Of a DNA stretch of 19,831 nucleotides, positions 5,658 to 19,831 are shown piece after piece. Made by a program: the position numbers and the translations under genes. This DNA comes from Candidatus Fermentibacterota bacterium (lineage in GTDB: Bacteria; JAFGKV01). Numbering within the stretch: position 1 is the stretch's first letter; the number at the start of each line of letters is the position of its first letter. Location: the NCBI GenBank assembly GCA_030620115.1, contig JAUXFG010000066.1, positions 1 through 19,831 of the forward strand. The letters are read 5' to 3'. The notes below the pieces were generated by a model. The model was not told the origin of the DNA, made no database searches, and saw only the letters and a list, made by a program, of their open reading frames with translations.

Positions 5658-5734
5658 CGTGAAATGCGATATCCGGCGTTGATCCCCACGGATTGGATCA
5701 GGGAACAGATTCCGGTACATGAGGAGGAGATCTC

Positions 5735-6667
5735 GTGGCGCATGAACAACTCGTGATTGTCGGCTCGGGTCCGGCAGGGCTGACGGCAGCCATCTACGCA
5801 AGCAGGGCAATGCTCAAACCACTCGTCATCGAAGGCACACAGCCCGGCGGCCAGCTGATGATTACCACGGAGGTTGAGAACTATCCGGGCTTTCCCGATG
5901 GCATCATGGGGCCGGAACTCATGAATCGAATGCGGCAACAGGCGGATCGATTCGGGGCGCGATTCCGCATGGAAGTAGCCACTGGATGCCGATTCCAGAC
6001 TCGTCCCCTGGCCATCTACCTTGGCGATGAAGAGGTTACTGCTGATACGGTGATTCTAGCCACCGGTGCAACAGCTCGTTACCTCGGGCTTCCCTCCGAA
6101 GAACGCTGGCGAGGGCGTGGTGTTTCCGCGTGTGCCACATGCGACGGCTTTTTTTTCAGAGATAAGGAGGTGGCGGTTGTCGGTGGGGGGGACACGGCTG
6201 CCGAAGAAGCACTGTTTCTCACGCGGTTTGCTTCCAAGGTCACCATCATACATCGACGAAATGAGTTGCGTGCCTCGAAGTTCATGCAGGAGCGCCTCTC
6301 CAATGATCCGAAAGTGGAGATCAGCTGGGACAGCGTCGTTATCGATGTCTTGGGCGAAGAACCAAGAGGCGTCACCGGCGTGCTACTCAAGAATGTGAAG
6401 ACCGGGGAGGAAAACGTACTCGCTTGTGACGGCATGTTCCTGGCCATCGGCCATCAGCCTAGTACGCTATTCGCCAAGGGCGAGCTTGAACTGAATGATG
6501 CCGGATACATAAAGGTTTTTCCAGGCAGTACGAGAACCGGAGTCGAGGGTGTGTTCGCGGCCGGTGATTGCCAGGATTCCATCTTTCGACAAGCCGTTTC
6601 CGCGGCAGGCACTGGATGTATGGCAGCCATTGAGGCCGAGCGCTATCTCCAGTCCGTCAAGAGCTGA
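5735..6667 (+). CDS. trxB: Thioredoxin reductase (NADPH, FAD)
   Basis: A 310-residue low-molecular-weight thioredoxin reductase. It shows the FAD-binding GSGPAGLTAAIYASRA near residue 10, QPGGQL, the redox-active CATC at residues 133-136, the second nucleotide-binding motif VVGGGDTAAEEA near 150, HRRNELRAS near 174 (the HRRxxxRA arginines favour NADPH), and the FAD-contact VFAAGD near 275. All catalytic residues are present and the length is standard. The enzyme transfers electrons from NADPH to thioredoxin in the cytoplasm. The start is GTG with a strong GAGGAGGAGA site at 5721-5730. A possible small gene begins 10 nt after the stop. No thioredoxin gene is visible in the window. Confidence 0.97.
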   Translation: MAHEQLVIVGSGPAGLTAAIYASRAMLKPLVIEGTQPGGQLMITTEVENYPGFPDGIMGPELMNRMRQQADRFGARFRMEVATGCRFQTRPLAIYLGDEEVTADTVILATGATARYLGLPSEERWRGRGVSACATCDGFFFRDKEVAVVGGGDTAAEEALFLTRFASKVTIIHRRNELRASKFMQERLSNDPKVEISWDSVVIDVLGEEPRGVTGVLLKNVKTGEENVLACDGMFLAIGHQPSTLFAKGELELNDAGYIKVFPGSTRTGVEGVFAAGDCQDSIFRQAVSAAGTGCMAAIEAERYLQSVKS

Positions 6668-6677
6668 GGACAGCGGC

Positions 6678-6887
6678 ATGCGTCGCCGCGGCGGATGGTG
6701 GTGCGAATTGCGGATTAGACTTGGCGCGGGTATGATTCCGATGCGGGTACGACTCGGCGATCGCGAACAGACATGGATCTGGGCGGCAGGGCTCGGAGGG
6801 AGAGGCATTTCGCAAATGATAAGGCCGGTGAGGGATCTTCTGCTTCGGGCGATTCGTCAGCTGGAGACGGGTCCACAGGGATCATAG
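6678..6887 (+). CDS. Possible small basic protein behind trxB, function unknown
   Basis: A 69-codon frame starts at an ATG 10 nt after the trxB stop, with GAGGA (6666-6670) overlapping the trxB terminator at good spacing. The predicted product is Arg- and Trp-rich at the start (MRRRGGWWCELRIRLG) and ends in an amphipathic helix-like segment (IRPVRDLLLRAIRQLE). The frame is also open back into trxB in another phase, which weakens the coding argument, and no family is recognised. If real it would be co-translated with trxB. The remaining gap, 6888-6979, holds nothing I recognise. Confidence 0.4.
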   Translation: MRRRGGWWCELRIRLGAGMIPMRVRLGDREQTWIWAAGLGGRGISQMIRPVRDLLLRAIRQLETGPQGS

Positions 6888-12912: not shown

Positions 12913-14291
12913 CACTTTCCTCCGATATTGACCTTGCATTTGATGGCCGGGCCGCCCATGCCCACAGGAATGGGCTGTTTTTTTCCGCACGTCCCGCTGC
13001 ATGTCCATTTCATGTCATCCGAGACTGCCGTGACCGTCTTCAGCATGTCGAAGGCCACACCCGAGATCGTGGTGTCCCTGAGTGCCTTTCCCCGCTTGCC
13101 GTTCCTTATCTCGTAGCCCTGAACCACACCGAACATGAACTCACTCGTGGAGTCAGCCTGTCCGTTGCTGGGCTTCATGAGGTAATATCCATCTTTGACT
13201 GAGGCTATCATCTCTTCGAGCTTGCTCTCCCCGGGAAGGATAGCGGTATTCCGCATCCTGATGAGTGGTTCGTCATTGAAGCTGAAAGCCCTGGCATTGC
13301 CTGTAGGCTTGGTATGGAAGAGATTGGCAGTCTCCTTGTTGTGCATGAACTGCTTCAGGACACCCTTATCGATTATCACGGCATCTTCAGCCTGCGTTCC
13401 CTCATCGTCAATGAACACTGGCACCGGACAGAGTTTTCCGAGAGCCATGTGTGCGAAATCCACCAGGGTGATGAGTGGGCTGGCGACCTCTTGATGGAGA
13501 TAATGACCCGCAATCGAACCGCCGCGGACGAAATCTGCTTCAGTCGTGTGTCCTATGGCCTCATGAGCGAGGATCCCCGCCAGGTGAGCATCAAGTATGC
13601 AGTCCTTCACTCCCGCCTCGGGATAGATGCCCTCCACCTTCCTGCGAAGGTGTTCATATTGTCGGTCCATCTGCTCGAAGAGAGAATCAGGGGTGGCAAA
13701 CACATCCTCGTACTGTCCGAAGCCGCCATAGGCATCGAACAGCTCGATGGGTTCACCGTCGCGTTCCATGGTGAGGGAAATGAGGATGATCGACCTCGGC
13801 GTCATCGAGTATGCTGATGATCCATCGGAAGTGAGCAGGGATTTCTCCATGTCGAGGAGCCGCAGCCATGTGGTTCTCGCACTGATCCCGCCGAACATAT
13901 CCACTATCCTGGAGTCGATTTCCCTCATGAACTCGATGAGCTCTTTCTGCGACTTTCGCGGCAGCGATGTGGAGTAGTCCTTCACTCCACTCGCGAGCGT
14001 TACCGGCAGTGGCTTGCCTCCTCTCTTCTCCCTGCTGTCCAGAAACTTCGCGTTCCTCGTGGCGGAGGCGATGACTTTCTTGATGGTGTCGTCGGTTATC
14101 TCCGGGGCGGAGACGAATCCCCAGACACCGTTCCGATATGTCCTTGCGGAAACACCGCTGGAGGAGGATTTGCTGTTAGACATGACATCGCCGTTCACGA
14201 CAACGATGCTGTTGGAACGGTTTTCCTGAACCCGCAGCTCCGTGTAATCGGAGAACAGATCAGAGTATCTGCCAAGCTCTTTTGGAATCAT
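12912..14291 (-). CDS. tldD: TldD, catalytic zinc subunit of the TldD/TldE protease
   Basis: 459 residues. The zinc motif is H243-E-A-I-G-H248 followed by TTEAD, the TldD-type HExxxH. The likely third ligand is Cys435 in CSGTCGKKQPIPVG, matching the C-terminal cysteine of characterised TldD. The N-terminal domain contains SSSSGVSARTYRNGVWGF, typical of the family, and the C-terminal half has FIDDEGTQAED and GNARAFSF. The start has AGGAAGGA about 6-8 nt upstream. With PmbA it forms the TldD/TldE heterodimer, known to mature microcin B17, degrade CcdA and trim some RiPPs. No leader-type precursor peptide, YcaO or transporter gene is visible next to this pair, so a housekeeping peptidase role is more likely here. 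Confidence 0.95.
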   Translation of the reverse strand: MIPKELGRYSDLFSDYTELRVQENRSNSIVVVNGDVMSNSKSSSSGVSARTYRNGVWGFVSAPEITDDTIKKVIASATRNAKFLDSREKRGGKPLPVTLASGVKDYSTSLPRKSQKELIEFMREIDSRIVDMFGGISARTTWLRLLDMEKSLLTSDGSSAYSMTPRSIILISLTMERDGEPIELFDAYGGFGQYEDVFATPDSLFEQMDRQYEHLRRKVEGIYPEAGVKDCILDAHLAGILAHEAIGHTTEADFVRGGSIAGHYLHQEVASPLITLVDFAHMALGKLCPVPVFIDDEGTQAEDAVIIDKGVLKQFMHNKETANLFHTKPTGNARAFSFNDEPLIRMRNTAILPGESKLEEMIASVKDGYYLMKPSNGQADSTSEFMFGVVQGYEIRNGKRGKALRDTTISGVAFDMLKTVTAVSDDMKWTCSGTCGKKQPIPVGMGGPAIKCKVNIGGK

Positions 14292-14551
14292 CGAACATCC
14301 TTCCTGTGACTGAATGCTGCATGTCGGGGCCTCATCAAGAAAGGATTTGGATCACCTGATATCAAGGCCATCCAGGAGGATAGCCCGGCATGAGTCGAGA
14401 TCTATTCTCTTGTGGCGAATTCCCGGGATCAGGGGCGAAGATCGTGTCATTCAGTTGATCGTTGCACGTGACCGCATGAATGTGCATACTCTTCGCGTGA
14501 TTTCCGGCGTGCGGGACGTTTCCCGCTGTGCTTCGCCTGGAGAACGCAATC
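14292..14551. other. Divergent gap between tldD and the ATPase fragment
   Basis: 260 nt between divergently oriented genes, so promoters for both sides should lie here. I could not identify a convincing -35/-10 pair. A TGGAGAAC ribosome-binding stretch at 14539-14546 serves the downstream ATG at 14552. Confidence 0.35.
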
Positions 14552-14890
14552 ATGAACAACAAACGATTCTTCAATACTGCTGGGCCTGTGAACTGCGACA
14601 AGCATTACTGTTTGTCGCCGCTGGAGCGAGTCAAACTTGAGGAGATCCTTCCTCTTATCGAACAGGAGAAGTACTTCGTGCTCCATGCGCCTCGCCAGAC
14701 AGGGAAAACATCGTGTCTACTCGCTCTGAGGGATTGCCAGAACGAATCGCAGGAGTATCGCGGAACACACTTCCCGGACTTCATTCCTGCGCTGAGCTGG
14801 ATAGCCCAGCTATACCAGGGCGCGAAGGGGCGAGGACGTTGTGCGGAGAAAACACACGATGAGAAGATCAGACTTCCGCGGGGTTCATGA
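14552..14890 (+). pseudogene. N-terminal fragment of an AAA-type ATPase (Walker A), disrupted
   Basis: From the ATG at 14552 the product starts MNNKRFFNTAGPVNCDKHYC and continues through LEEILPLIEQEKYFVLHAPRQTGKTS, where APRQTGKTS is a Walker A P-loop. This is the familiar beginning of a P-loop ATPase family whose members usually run to several hundred residues and end in a nuclease-like domain. Here recognisable similarity stops around LLALRDCQNESQEYRG (near nt 14765), followed by about 40 unrelated codons and a stop. Walker B and the rest of the ATPase are missing. The family's C-terminal end is found 1.36 kb downstream at 16129-16434 in the same orientation, so I call this one half of a broken gene. 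The ribosome binding site looks intact, so a short peptide could still be made. Confidence 0.8.
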
Positions 14891-15533
14891 AGATGCTTCC
14901 GCTCAATGGCTAAAGACAAGGGAGTATGATGGATGTGTCGATAGCGAAAGTGTAACAGAGACTTGGTACAGACTCAGTTTTGAAGACGCAGGGTGTTTCA
15001 TGGACGATGATGAATGGATTGAACATAAGATCGACCTGGAGCACAGAGTTGTCAATTCATGGGTAAAGCTCATTACTCTTGAATACAGAAACACGACAAC
15101 AGGAGAGATAAGACGGTCTTGGTCCACTTCTCTACGCCCATACGTGCAAGGTTATGGATGTGATGGGTCAACAGATCTCAATATCCATGCGATTGCCAAT
15201 AGACTTGCTGAGCAGCAGGGACTTGATTACCCTTCCCTCATGATAAGGGCGTATCCCAGCGATTTCGCCACTACAGACGATTTCAGCTGGTTGAAAGATG
15301 AAGTTGTGTTGGCAGAGACCATCATTCCCAGGGAAGTAGACGCTGATCTGGCTTTGAGAGACTTGCAGGAAATAAACAACTACACGCTAGCGACGGAGTT
15401 TGGGATTGAACTCCATAGAGTCGGGGCCATATCAACAGATTGGGCGGAAATCCGGAGAACTCAGGAAGTGTTGAAAGAGAAAATTGAAGGAGATGTACGT
15501 GACTGGTTTGAGATGTATAGCCGGACAATATGA
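14859..15533 (+). CDS. Hypothetical protein, unknown function, inside a disrupted ATPase gene
   Basis: 224 residues from the ATG at 14859 (GGAGA ten nt upstream); a GTG at 14841 would add six residues. The product is acidic and soluble with no signal peptide or membrane segment. The N-terminal half reads like beta-strands (WYRLSFEDAGCFMDDDEWIE, then NSWVKLITLEYRNTTTGEIR) and the C-terminal part is helical (DLALRDLQEINNYTLATEFG, then TQEVLKEKIEGDVRDWFEMY). I recognise no family. The gene is visibly richer in A/T than its neighbours and sits in the gap between the two halves of the ATPase-nuclease gene, both of which suggest acquisition by transfer. It overlaps the tail of the truncated ATPase frame by 32 nt in another phase. 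The coding call rests on length, the ribosome binding site and protein-like composition. Confidence 0.65.
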   Translation: MRRSDFRGVHEDASAQWLKTREYDGCVDSESVTETWYRLSFEDAGCFMDDDEWIEHKIDLEHRVVNSWVKLITLEYRNTTTGEIRRSWSTSLRPYVQGYGCDGSTDLNIHAIANRLAEQQGLDYPSLMIRAYPSDFATTDDFSWLKDEVVLAETIIPREVDADLALRDLQEINNYTLATEFGIELHRVGAISTDWAEIRRTQEVLKEKIEGDVRDWFEMYSRTI

Positions 15534-15628
15534 TATCGTTGTTGAGCAGGAAGAGGAAGGGGAAGCGCAACGAATTAAGGATTTCCAGGGTGCCGAAGGC
15601 ACGCTGTCAGGCGCTTAAGGGGTGCGAG

Positions 15629-15658
15629 TTTACTCCCGCCATGGCAGGATTGGTAAAG
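15629..15658 (+). repeat. 30-nt direct repeat, copy 1
   Basis: It starts TTTACTCCCGCCATGGCAGG and matches 15945-15974 (TTTACTCACGTCATGCCGGG start) at 25 of 30 positions. Both end in GGATTGG-AAAG. Confidence 0.55.
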
Positions 15659-15853
15659 TCAGGAAAGAGAGAGATTCTCTCGCCCTTCGACGCCGCTCAT
15701 CTCGACTCCGCTCGATACAGGCAGGATCTTCGACAAAGGCACGAAGATCGCAAAGGTGCCACTTTCGGTCGTTTGGGAGAAGTGGGGAGATGGGATTTGA
15801 ACTACGATAAACGCGAATGACACGAAAGGAAGAAGACCGGGCACATCCATGTC

Positions 15854-15923
15854 TGGAGGGCTATGCTTTGTCATGGCCGCCGTATGAGCCGATAGCGTTG
15901 ACGCGACGGAGCGCGTCTCTCCA
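15854..15923 (+). repeat. 70-bp element with TGGAGGG end, copy 1
   Basis: It begins TGGAGGGCTATGCTTTGTCA and ends GACGCGACGGAGCGCGTCTCTCCA. The second copy, at 17153-17222, has exactly the same length, and there the ends are the inverted pair TGGAGGG/CCCTCCA. Inside is the hairpin GACGCG-ACGGAG-CGCGTC. Its minus-strand translation is the WRDALRRV...GHDKAW peptide seen in many spurious annotations (from memory). Confidence 0.8.
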
Positions 15924-15944
15924 CAGGTGGATAGTAACGCCAGT

Positions 15945-15974
15945 TTTACTCACGTCATGCCGGGATTGGCAAAG
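15945..15974 (+). repeat. 30-nt direct repeat, copy 2
   Basis: Second copy of the repeat at 15629-15658, with five differences. It lies 21 nt after the 70-bp element. Confidence 0.55.
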
Positions 15975-16027
15975 GCGATGACGAAACACCGTCAAAAACG
16001 ATCCAAGTCTTTTGGGACGAGTTTTTA

Positions 16028-16111
16028 GGTACAGAGAGTGCCGAGGCTGTCTGGAACTCACCACAACACTAGGAGTTTTTGTATCCGGGGTATTTGTGCA
16101 CTCTCTGTACC
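16028..16111. repeat. Perfect 14-bp inverted repeat around 56 nt, at the edge of the nuclease fragment
   Basis: GGTACAGAGAGTGC (16028-16041) and GCACTCTCTGTACC (16098-16111) are exact reverse complements. A smaller inner pair (GGAACTC/GAGTTTTT region) is possible. It ends 17 nt before the point where homology to the ATPase family's C-terminal domain resumes. It matches no attC or terminator layout. Confidence 0.8.
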
Positions 16112-16128
16112 AACGTCCCCTAGTCATT

Positions 16129-16434
16129 ATGAATGCTGGGGGAAGGATAGAGCGTGAATACGGACTGGGGCGGAAACGCACTGATCTTTTGGTGATATGG
16201 CCATACCCGGCAGGACTCCAGAAGGCCGTTATTGAGCTGAAGATACTCCACAAATCATTGGAAACGACTATAGCAAAAGGCGTGGAGCAGACATGGGAGT
16301 ACATGGACCGGTCTGGAGCCGAGGAAGGTCATTTGGTGATTTTCGACCGGGCGGAAGGCAAGCCGTGGGAGGATAAGATCTTTCGACGCAAGGAGGAGTA
16401 TCACGGCATCCCCATCATGGTTTGGGGCATGTGA
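16129..16434 (+). pseudogene. C-terminal PD-(D/E)XK-like fragment of the disrupted ATPase
   Basis: 101 residues from the ATG at 16129 (MNAGGRIEREYGLGRKRTDL) to a stop at 16434. The block carries a nuclease-fold signature: E near REYG, D in RTDLLVIWP, then AVIELKIL (E-x-K) and a downstream EQTWEYMDR, followed by GHLVIFDR and the terminal KIFRRKEEYHGIPIMVWGM. This is the usual end of the same ATPase family whose P-loop start lies at 14552, in the same orientation. The frame is open back to 16012, but codons before 16129 cross the inverted repeat and do not look like the family. Roughly 300 residues of the parent protein are absent between the halves. Whether the fragment is translated alone is unknown; no clear ribosome binding site precedes 16129. 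Confidence 0.8.
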
Positions 16435-16481
16435 GCCGTATCAAGATCGAGGAGATAGAGCGTTCGAGATAGAGGGGATTT

Positions 16482-16517
16482 GGGAAGCGTTGAGCGTTCA
16501 GCAATGAGTGTTCAGCG
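16482..16517 (-). repeat. GCGTTGAGCGTTCAG repeat, inverted copy
   Basis: It reads GGGAAGCGTTGAGCGTTCAG followed by an ATGAGTGTTCAGCG variant. It is the reverse complement, with an indel and few changes, of the 17048-17075 stretch, itself part of one of the three 27-nt direct repeats. Confidence 0.6.
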
Positions 16518-16609
16518 TCCGAGGAAGAGAGGATATAGAACACCGAGTATCCTTTTTGCAATGCCCGCCTTGCGATGACCCCCGATCCCTCTCTCATACA
16601 TCTTGGAGT

Positions 16610-16646
16610 GCGGCAGCCCCGCATACTGCGCGGGGCTGCCGCTTTT
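16610..16646 (+). terminator. Strong GC hairpin followed by TTTT
   Basis: GCGGCAGCCCCGC (16610-16622) and GCGGGGCTGCCGC (16630-16642) form a perfect 13-bp stem with a 7-nt loop, followed by TTTT. It could end + strand transcription from the island. Equally, it may be one more copy of a GCGGCAGC-type intergenic repeat, since the surrounding DNA is repetitive. Confidence 0.5.
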
Positions 16647-16838
16647 CCCAAGCAAGCCATGCTTGCGCCCATCACCAGGCATCCGACAGTCTACCATGAG
16701 CAGATATCGATTGGGCGAACGCGCAAGGTTGTTCTACACCATTGATCACGGCCGTGAACTCACAGAAAACGGCAATCGTATCCCAGGCTATCATCCCTGG
16801 CGCGCCGCAGCCCGGGGCAAAGGCGGCTGTTCACTCTT

Positions 16839-16865
16839 CATCTATGCGCTTATCGCTGAACGCTC
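16839..16865 (+). repeat. 27-nt direct repeat, copy 1 of 3
   Basis: Consensus CATCTRTRCGCTYATCRCTG followed by AACGCTC. Copies start at 16839, 17040 and 17229, spaced 201 and 189 nt. Copies 1 and 3 differ at one position. Confidence 0.8.
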
Positions 16866-16885
16866 TCTTCTCCCCTGCCCACCCA

Positions 16886-16984
16886 GATTCTTCGGTCGCT
16901 CCGCTCCCTCAGAATGACACGCGATGCAACATCCTTCTGCTTGCTACCATTGTCATTCTGAGCGACCGCAAGGAGCGAAGAATC
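16886..16984. repeat. GATTCTTCG...CTCAGAATGAC inverted repeat pair
   Basis: The two 33-nt arms (16886-16918 and 16952-16984) have matching outer 9 nt (GATTCTTCG) and inner 10 nt (TCAGAATGAC) in inverted orientation, while the middles differ. This is a very widespread intergenic motif (from memory). Confidence 0.75.
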
Positions 16985-17039
16985 TTTCCTTGCTCCAGAA
17001 TCCCCTCTCCCATTCCTGTCTCTTCCTCCTTCGTCTCTT

Positions 17040-17066
17040 CATCTGTACGCTCATCACTGAACGCTC
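17040..17066 (+). repeat. 27-nt direct repeat, copy 2 of 3
   Basis: The most diverged of the three copies. It continues into CAACGTTCCC, which makes it the partner of the inverted copy at 16482-16517. Confidence 0.75.
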
Positions 17067-17152
17067 AACGTTCCCAAAATCCCCCATTCCCCGAGCGCGA
17101 TCCGCCGGCTGGCGGACGTCCCTCCACAGGAGAAGACGTACACATTGCTTGA

Positions 17153-17222
17153 TGGAGGGCCATGTTTCGTCATGGCCGCTGTTGGTGCCAATACGGCGGA
17201 CGCGACGGAGCGCGTCCCTCCA
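17153..17222 (+). repeat. 70-bp element with TGGAGGG/CCCTCCA ends, copy 2
   Basis: Same length and orientation as 15854-15923, with perfect 7-bp terminal inverted repeats. A further truncated relative ends at about 17098-17130 (GCGGACGTCCCTCCACAGG). Confidence 0.8.
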
Positions 17223-17228
17223 GTCTGT

Positions 17229-17255
17229 CATCTATACGCTTATCGCTGAACGCTC
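17229..17255 (+). repeat. 27-nt direct repeat, copy 3 of 3
   Basis: It lies 12-38 nt past the 3' end of the minus-strand FG-GAP gene. It continues into ATCGCTTCCCC before the stop codon. Confidence 0.8.
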
Positions 17256-17266
17256 ATCGCTTCCCC

Positions 17267-19831
17267 TTACGGCAACACGAAATCGTGCTCTCCCGCTCGG
17301 TTCGACCGGGTGATCTCCTGTTCCGATCCATCCACCGCGATAACGAGATAGACCCAGTTATGATCGGCATCCCCGATGCCGCTGGGGCTGGTCCACGTGG
17401 TGGTTGGAGAAACAACCACGGCCTGTCGGTGCATATGAGGCGAACTCAATCCCGGCTCGAAGTAGGCTTCGTTGTCGGCGCCGTAGACCCAGTAGGCTGT
17501 CGCTGATGGACAGGTCGTCCATTCCAGCACGAGATCACTACCCGATACGCTGCCATCCAGCGTCATCTCATTACCGCCACCAATGATGAACTGGCTGAAG
17601 GCGGTCAGGTCATTGGCCGTGATGGAGCCTACGCCATCCGACGTACTCCCTTCATAGTCCGTAGTAGTCCCGCTGACGAGACTCCAGCTCTGCCCGGGAG
17701 CCGTCCGCGTGTACAACGCAAGCGCCGTCTCGTCCCAGATCCCGCTCAAGTTATCGTAGTGGAACGCCACATCAGCCTGGAAAGACCCGTCGTCGTGGGC
17801 TATCCAGAGTTCCCAGTAGGTGGAGTCGTAGTGGACCGGCAGTCCGCCGGTTGTGTCGGGAAAATCGTCAACCTGGATCGCCGCAAAGATCGCATCCGTG
17901 CCCGGATCAGCTTCCCACGTGATGTCCACAGGGACGTCGACGTCCTCCACCAGGTTGCCGATGCCCAGCCCCACGTGGCTGTGATGCCCCACGGCAGCTG
18001 CGGATGTAACCCAATCCGTATCGTCCATGTTCATGAGGGTGCCGTCGTTGTCGTTGGTAGTCCGATCCGAAAGCGCCGTGCCCGAGAGGTGATCGAACCG
18101 GTAGTAGGCTGCGAGACCTGCCTCGTCCCCGTTCATTACCTTGTTCATGTCGGTCTGGATGTCGGTCTCGGAACGAGCAACGTTCCAGATCCGAACCTCG
18201 TCGATCTTGCCGTGGAAATATCCTCCAGGACTGCCGCCCGAATTCAATGCCGAGCCGATGGCGTTGTCTTGTATGCTGTCATACCGAGGGATAGCGCCGG
18301 CGCCGACGCTGTTTTCCTGCTTCCCGTTCAAGTAGAGCTTCAATGCCGAGCCGTCATAGGTTACCGAAGCATGATACCAAACACTGTCCTGGACCGCGGT
18401 GGCGCCGCTGATTGGATGATTGCCCCCAGAAGACATGTCTTCGAAATCCGCAGCCAAGACACCCCCGTCGCTTATGCCCAGGAAGTAGTTCATATCTCTG
18501 CTGTCGCCGTCCGCCTCGCCACGCCCTTTTGTGACCAGTGGCACGGCGGTGATTCCTCCTCCTCCGGTATTGGTGGTAACGCCGCTGCCCTCCTTCCTGA
18601 ACCAGCAACACAACGTGAATGTCTGCAGCCCCAGACTTTCGGGCTCTTGCAGGTCAACGTAGTCGTCGCTGCCGTCAAAATCCAACCCGTTGCCCGGCGG
18701 GGTCATGTTCGTGGCGAAGACCTTGTTTTCCCCGTGTGCGGTCTGCTCTGCATTCGTGGCGTAGGCACGCACGTAGTAGGTCTCACCAGAGGTAAGACCG
18801 GTGAGCGAGCTGACGAACGATCCCAGGCCGCTGCCGTCGTTGGTCATGCCGAGGTGCGTGCCAACAGTGGGATTCTCGCTGGTATCCCACACAACGCCTT
18901 TGGCGGTGACCGAAAAGCCGCCTTCGTGGGTAACCTCTCCGCCGCTAGTGGCCGTGGTCTTGGTGATGTCGGTAACGCTCGCCGTGGTGATGCTGATGAC
19001 GCTAAACGTCCCTTCAGTGGCAAAGGCTGAGCCGGCGAAGGCGTTGTCTATGGCCTGGACGCTCCAGTAGTGCACTCCGCCGGGCAGGCTGTGTATCACC
19101 CACGTGGTGTCGTGGTTCGTGTTACCCAGGGCAGGCACGCGGCGGTAGCCGGTGCCGGCATCGGCCATGGGGGTCATGATGTCCATCCCTCCCGGAGAAA
19201 TGCCGATGCGGAGGTTGTAAGTCAAGGCGTCGACCGCGGTCTCGGTGTTCGTAGACTTGACCCAACTGAGCGTGACCTCCTGATCGGAAACCGATGCGGC
19301 AGGGTTTGACGGCGCATCAGGAACGGTATTGGTAGTCAACCCGTCATTGCGGTAAATGCGGGTCATGCGGGTGCTGCCGGTCCACCCGGCCAAGAACGCG
19401 TCGAGGTCGCCGTCGTTGTCGTAGTCGCCCCACGCTACGCTGCAATAGTCTACCCCCGGGAGACCAGCGCCGATGTTCGTGAACGTACCACTATCATTGC
19501 GGTAGATGCGGGTGATATGGCTGCCAGCGGTATACCCGGCCACGAGCACATCCAGGTCGCCGTCGTTGTCGTAGTCCCCCCAGGCTACGCTGCAGCAATA
19601 TACCCCCGGGAGACCGGCGTCGATGTTGGTGAATGTACCGGAGCCCTCATTGCGGTAGATGCGCGTGATGTCGCTGCTGCCGGTCCACCCGGCCAAGAGC
19701 ACATCCAGGTCGCCGTCGTTGTCGTAGTCCCCCCACGCTACGCCGCAATCGCGTACGCCTGGCAAACCTGCGCCGATGTTGGTGAATGTACCGGAGCCCT
19801 CGTTGCGGTAGATGCGCGTGATGCGGCTGCC
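17267..19831 (-). CDS. Large secreted FG-GAP/FN3/LamG-like surface protein (5' end outside window)
   Basis: 854 residues are visible; the frame is open to the right edge, so the N-terminus, including any signal peptide, is missing. Going from N to C: at least three FG-GAP/VCBS repeats with VAWGDYDNDGDLDVLLAGW calcium loops; an FN3 domain (VPDAPSNPAASVSDQEVTLS through HYWSVQAIDNAFAG); a second FN3-like module (ATSGGEVTHEGGFSVTAKGV to GETYYVRAYATNA); a LamG/concanavalin-like domain (LDFDGSDDYVDLQEPESLG, WYHASVTYDGSALKLYLNGK, GKIDEVRIWNVARS); a beta-rich region; and a last FN3-like segment with NWVYLVIAVDGSEQEITRSN. There is no PEP-CTERM, LPXTG or clear Por/T9SS tail. It is probably an exported adhesin-like or carbohydrate-binding protein. 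The first-position TTG near 19765 is an internal codon, not the start. Confidence 0.9.
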   Translation of the reverse strand, partial: GSRITRIYRNEGSGTFTNIGAGLPGVRDCGVAWGDYDNDGDLDVLLAGWTGSSDITRIYRNEGSGTFTNIDAGLPGVYCCSVAWGDYDNDGDLDVLVAGYTAGSHITRIYRNDSGTFTNIGAGLPGVDYCSVAWGDYDNDGDLDAFLAGWTGSTRMTRIYRNDGLTTNTVPDAPSNPAASVSDQEVTLSWVKSTNTETAVDALTYNLRIGISPGGMDIMTPMADAGTGYRRVPALGNTNHDTTWVIHSLPGGVHYWSVQAIDNAFAGSAFATEGTFSVISITTASVTDITKTTATSGGEVTHEGGFSVTAKGVVWDTSENPTVGTHLGMTNDGSGLGSFVSSLTGLTSGETYYVRAYATNAEQTAHGENKVFATNMTPPGNGLDFDGSDDYVDLQEPESLGLQTFTLCCWFRKEGSGVTTNTGGGGITAVPLVTKGRGEADGDSRDMNYFLGISDGGVLAADFEDMSSGGNHPISGATAVQDSVWYHASVTYDGSALKLYLNGKQENSVGAGAIPRYDSIQDNAIGSALNSGGSPGGYFHGKIDEVRIWNVARSETDIQTDMNKVMNGDEAGLAAYYRFDHLSGTALSDRTTNDNDGTLMNMDDTDWVTSAAAVGHHSHVGLGIGNLVEDVDVPVDITWEADPGTDAIFAAIQVDDFPDTTGGLPVHYDSTYWELWIAHDDGSFQADVAFHYDNLSGIWDETALALYTRTAPGQSWSLVSGTTTDYEGSTSDGVGSITANDLTAFSQFIIGGGNEMTLDGSVSGSDLVLEWTTCPSATAYWVYGADNEAYFEPGLSSPHMHRQAVVVSPTTTWTSPSGIGDADHNWVYLVIAVDGSEQEITRSNRAGEHDFVLP
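19341..19831 (-). repeat. Tandem DNA repeats encoding FG-GAP units
   Basis: Units of 150 and 153 nt, measured between the CGTCGTTGTC cores at 19411, 19561 and 19714, are strongly similar at the nucleotide level, with a fourth partial unit at the window edge. Each encodes about 50 residues (WGDYDNDGDLD, then ITRIYRN, SGTFTNI). High DNA identity suggests recent duplication or gene conversion. Confidence 0.85.

Follow-up and report, generated by a model that had tools for sequence, protein, structure and literature searches.

The window, by which we mean the whole stretch of 19,831 nucleotides analysed, is contig C161 of a 4.10 Mb genome assembled in 296 contigs. Towards its right-hand end it carries the two ends of an ATPase-nuclease gene, separated by a filling of 1,363 bp that holds a foreign gene, repeats and a palindrome. 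The features of this region are as follows.

14427–14551, forward strand: retained upstream region of the ATPase copy; the CTGGAGAACGCAATC ribosome-binding stretch ahead of its ATG is conserved (alignment to C27 and C109)
14552–14761, forward strand: 5′ fragment of the ATPase-nuclease gene, residues 1–70 (paralogue alignment)
14762–14858, forward strand: 97 unique bases from the left breakpoint to the foreign gene, with no second copy in the genome
14859–15533, forward strand: horizontally acquired gene, 224 residues, uncharacterised family
15603–15669, no strand assigned: dispersed intergenic repeat, with a copy on C39 and a weaker match on C27
15835–15930, no strand assigned: dispersed intergenic repeat, of which the genome has some 30 or more other copies, one at 17153–17222
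16014–16124, no strand assigned: probable palindromic miniature element abutting the right breakpoint; its terminal repeat matches the repeats bracketing the Y1 transposase gene on C241
16125–16434, forward strand: 3′ fragment of the ATPase-nuclease gene, residues 429–530, coding from 16126 (paralogue alignment)
16435–16614, forward strand: retained downstream flank, common to C109 (to 16583) and C27 (to 16459, then 16519–16614)

Both fragments match the same three other loci of the genome, on contigs C27, C109 and C217, the last being a distant copy. The genes on C27 (encoding 530 residues) and C109 are the two uninterrupted close paralogues and the window holds the third close copy. The 5′ fragment is 90% identical to C27 and 83% to C109 (the nucleotide match to the upstream region and 5′ part of C27 covers about 14427–14745 at 89%) and the 3′ fragment is 96% and 94% identical to the same two. 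Full-length proteins of unrelated bacteria, too, are matched by the two fragments at opposite ends; in a Pseudanabaena plasmid-protein homologue (WP_281010165) the 5′ fragment matches residues 3–65 (57%, E 2e-19) and the 3′ fragment residues 415–490 (34%, E 1e-11), well outside what chance would give. We based the assignment on paralogues and full-length homologues because Pfam alone is too weak for these pieces: it gave no match for the 5′ fragment, and for the 3′ fragment its only hits, PDDEXK_9 and PDDEXK_3, had an E of about 0.1 and missed the cut-off (PF08011 at 12.9 bits vs 25.5). On these alignments the first-pass annotation was right that the Walker A start and the PD-(D/E)XK-like end belong to one protein family, of which they form the opposite ends.

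The general architecture resembles that of the DUF1703 proteins, AAA-ATPase_like (PF09820) followed by PDDEXK_9 (PF08011) (Knizewski et al., 2007; PMC1913061), in having an N-terminal AAA+ module with Walker A and B, a C-terminal PD-(D/E)XK nuclease-like domain and several copies per genome. However, the C27 protein misses both Pfam cut-offs (PF09820 at 17.9 bits against 26.1; PF08011 unlisted) and for this reason it is set apart as a related but separate family. Homologues of C27 elsewhere are annotated as ATP-binding protein or AAA family ATPase; none was found among viral contigs, and a PADLOC search with the intact C27 protein gave no confident match, only PDC-S01 at E 0.016–0.037.

The breakpoints, placed at 14765 and 16115 by the first-pass annotation, could be refined to 14761/14762 and 16124/16125. 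On the left, nucleotide homology to C27 ends at 14745 and is extended at the protein level to 14761; on the right it resumes at 16125. Counted on C27, the missing piece is 1,073 bp (5708–6780). Residues 71–428 are thus absent, as had been proposed for the middle of the family, and a simple insertion is ruled out by this loss; the middle of the gene is gone, so a replacement (insertion plus deletion) is required, again in line with the earlier suggestion. The 5′ fragment keeps Walker A (HAPRQTGKTS) and has lost Walker B (the stretch VVLLIDEID) and everything past it, leaving an incomplete ATPase module. The 3′ fragment has the PD-(D/E)XK catalytic residues (D...ExK; RTDLL, IELK) and lacks the first nuclease helix. 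As judged from the alignments, these pieces cannot work as one ATPase enzyme because they lack Walker B, the remainder of the AAA module and the first helix of the nuclease.

We consider it probable that the window copy is a pseudogene formed by insertion and deletion, in which the third ATPase copy lost residues 71–428 and received instead a 1.36-kb patchwork that includes a horizontally acquired orphan gene. The retained upstream and downstream flanks are both part of the same duplicated unit, and a single broken gene is thus favoured over a pair of truncated neighbours. The latter arrangement, in which two neighbouring ATPase copies flanked the foreign gene and were shortened, one from the 3′ side and the other from the 5′ side, so that the fragments were never one gene, seems improbable to us. 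It would fit the multi-copy nature of the family and the uneven distances of the pieces, the 5′ piece being nearer to C27 (dS 0.34) than to C109 (0.63) while the 3′ piece is equidistant (0.24 to both), but it needs two separate truncations and the flanks match those of single copies. Moreover, C27 (L009:5373–7191) and C109 (L010) are mosaics in which blocks of about 90–95% identity alternate with blocks of about 50–70%. Gene conversion within the ATPase family is therefore likely, and this would explain the uneven distances as well. Incomplete copies and recombination among copies, as in the window genome, have been reported for DUF1703-type genes in Cardinium (PMC6387759). For comparison with the broken gene, uninterrupted copies are thus at hand as paralogues on C27 and C109, but not in relatives: two genomes of the host's family lack the ATPase, their tldD contigs stop shortly past tldD with no intact locus there, and no strain with an uninterrupted locus was found.

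Another rival reading is a chimeric contig that joins different loci or organisms at repeats. The assembly is fragmented (the 296 contigs mentioned above) and rich in repeats, and inside the fragments the sequence is identical to C27 over 98 bp and to C109 over 48 bp. It should be noted, however, that a mis-join within those runs would leave both junctions between ATPase and insert standing. Exact words across the two junctions reach at most 13 and 10 nt in the comparison loci (about 291 kb, part of the genome), and since no exact word of more than 13 bases spans either junction a simple chimera is disfavoured. The right flank of the foreign gene has genome-typical repeats to both of its sides. 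On these word-sharing grounds a misjoin is unlikely, and we give the chimeric origin very little weight.

The two edges of the replacement differ. The left breakpoint is without any repeat or element, unlike the right one, which is touched by the palindrome at 16014–16124. This 111-bp palindrome has perfect arms of 14 bp, 56 bases apart, and its single-strand fold has a z of −3.9. Genome-wide, 13 matches to the terminal motif GGGGACGTTGGTNCNGAGAGTGC occur at ≤3 mismatches vs 0 for the reversed control. On C241 two copies of the motif face inward (39982, forward, and 40780, reverse) around a PF01797 match at 40107–40391, a Y1 (IS200-like) transposase gene whose reading frame shifts part-way. 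Because it carries the inverted repeats that bracket this transposase, the palindrome is probably a miniature element of the IS200-like family. It resembles published TIRtrons, in which inverted repeats enclose IS200-like Y1 transposase genes (PMC3733652), in being a non-coding palindromic copy whose ends are the inverted repeats around a Y1 transposase gene of the same genome. It differs from them in its terminal motif, here GGGGACGT whereas some published TIRs share GGGGWSAS (PMC3733652), and in that the transposase between the repeats on C241 is frame-broken. The C241 locus (L063, C241:39983–40780) has the transposase gene between inverted GGGGACGTTGGTGCAGAAAGTGC-type repeats, and elsewhere in the genome the motif occurs singly or paired. 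The dispersed repeats at 15603–15669 and 15835–15930, together with the palindrome, account for the repeats noted earlier within the gap. A 70-bp dispersed repeat (TGGAGGGCYATG...GCGACGGAGCGCGTCYCTCCA) lies at 15854–15923 and again at 17153–17222, with dozens of copies genome-wide.

To account for the pseudogene we propose that a Y1 transposase mobilised the palindrome, which inserted into the right edge or recombined there; insertion by the transposase is suggested by the ends of the palindrome. A neighbouring deletion or repair event would have joined the imported gene and the intergenic DNA downstream of it to the 5′ end of the ATPase. DNA loss adjoining insertion sequences is a documented outcome (PMC11708052), and we adopted it by inference as the model here. 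The old ATPase promoter may drive transcription of the imported gene, which has its own ribosome-binding site.

We set the start of this gene at 14859, where it aligns with the starts of its relatives (the ORF list has a longer start at 14841); GGAG, 10 nt upstream of this ATG, provides the ribosome-binding site. The protein family has the motif RPYVQGYGCDGxTDxNIH. As the first-pass annotation had it, the gene is AT-richer than its surroundings, with 46.3% GC vs 53–57% in neighbouring genes. Its AT-richness holds for each of the three hosts compared (46%, 47% and 43% GC; loci of the two relatives 53–55%). The gene is single-copy in the genome and absent from all 59 other genomes searched, including two of the host's family. 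The encoded protein is 70% identical to a relative in Desulfobacterales HSG2 and 62% to one in Desulfobacteraceae S15.Bin039, the only two carriers among 389 sampled genomes of that Desulfobacterales relative's order. Comparison with the HSG2 locus (L038; dN 0.17, dS 1.02) points to purifying selection. Taken together, the sequence comparisons indicate horizontal acquisition.

More distant relatives occur in Methylobacter and Achromobacter and on plasmids of Methylomonas and Acaryochloris. Like the gap gene, the proteins of the Methylomonas AM2-LC plasmid, Acaryochloris pREC3, Achromobacter ANB-1 and Methylobacter KS41 have an RPxVxGxGCDGxxD core and a C-terminal INN, but they are only 26–39% identical to it and their genes sit amid plasmid or element genes that are absent around the gene in the window. 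In both methanotrophs the neighbours include a CobT-like VWA gene; those of the Achromobacter gene include genes for an N6 methylase, an integrase and a PAPS-reductase-like protein, and those of the Acaryochloris plasmid gene a PAPS-reductase-family gene and DNA methyltransferases. The S15.Bin039 relative adjoins PemK/MazF-like and Uma2 genes. From such neighbours the product of the gap gene is most likely an accessory protein, one whose family moves with plasmids and integrative elements. Near the HSG2 relative, reading of L038 shows an ATPase-like protein with a nuclease-like end (13345–15153) and a partial copy (24–692); the ATPase-like protein has no Pfam match.

The gap gene had been seen as possible cargo of a mobile or defence-type island. 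The gene is horizontally acquired and has distant relatives on plasmids and near an integrase gene, but no island and no defence system could be recognised here. No intact mobile island was found around the gene, and the ORF list of the window, read rather than scanned for families, has no integrase- or transposase-like ORF beside it. PADLOC gave no match to it and no known anti-phage defence system was identified; no relative appeared in viral-contig and phage searches. Pfam, NCBIfam and PHROGs hold no family for the protein (NCBIfam VioC, at E 0.035, is far under cut-off), a PDB sequence search with its profile returned nothing, and Rfam had no hit at gathering scores. An AlphaFold model of the protein has a mean pLDDT of 76 and gives weak matches (Foldseek best E 0.047, VIA-align best Z 5.3), the structure-match rows spanning mainly residues 5–96.

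The 3′ fragment has accumulated 2 replacement and 7 silent changes on the window branch (P 0.0006 against neutrality), and the corresponding ratios for the intact copies in the same region are 2:7 and 4:7. From this constraint it follows that the break would be recent or the fragment still used and under selection. The second possibility could take the form of functional re-use, with the ATPase promoter driving the foreign gene and the 3′ fragment kept as a small separate nuclease-domain protein, a reading we regard as highly unlikely. In keeping with it, the fragment has an in-frame ATG at 16129, and the frame of the 5′ fragment, which has the same orientation as the foreign gene, reads into the start of that gene. 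Nevertheless, a recent break yields the same substitution pattern, the fragment lacks the first nuclease helix, reading of the sequence ahead of 16129 shows no evident ribosome-binding site and a consensus scan, which covers promoters of the sigma-70 type alone, found no promoter. That the break put a plasmid-type gene behind the ATPase promoter and left the nuclease-domain remnant as a small protein of its own, the two forming a new working arrangement, is in our estimate very unlikely.

As a pseudogene, then, the locus would be a real scar left by genome rearrangement, though of a fairly ordinary kind, and it reveals no new system. It is a clear example of the decay of a multi-copy ATPase-nuclease gene, in one copy of which the middle would have been replaced by horizontally acquired DNA that has a transposon-type palindrome at one of its edges. 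A small uncharacterised protein family has also come to notice; it is present in several phyla, and distant members of it lie on plasmids and near an integrase gene.

Beyond the remnant, 17267–19831 encodes a protein with FG-GAP and Laminin_G_3 domains that is convergent to it and runs off the contig; by ORF reading an FG-GAP-like protein is likewise convergent to the ATPase on C109. The intervening 16838–17264 contains three copies of a TCATCTATACGCTTATCGCTGAACGCTC repeat, and a further palindrome (16885–16985) has 35-bp arms and the ends AGATTCTTCGG...TCAGAATGACA. Stretches resembling these repeats and this palindrome are also present near the ATPase copies on C27 and C109.
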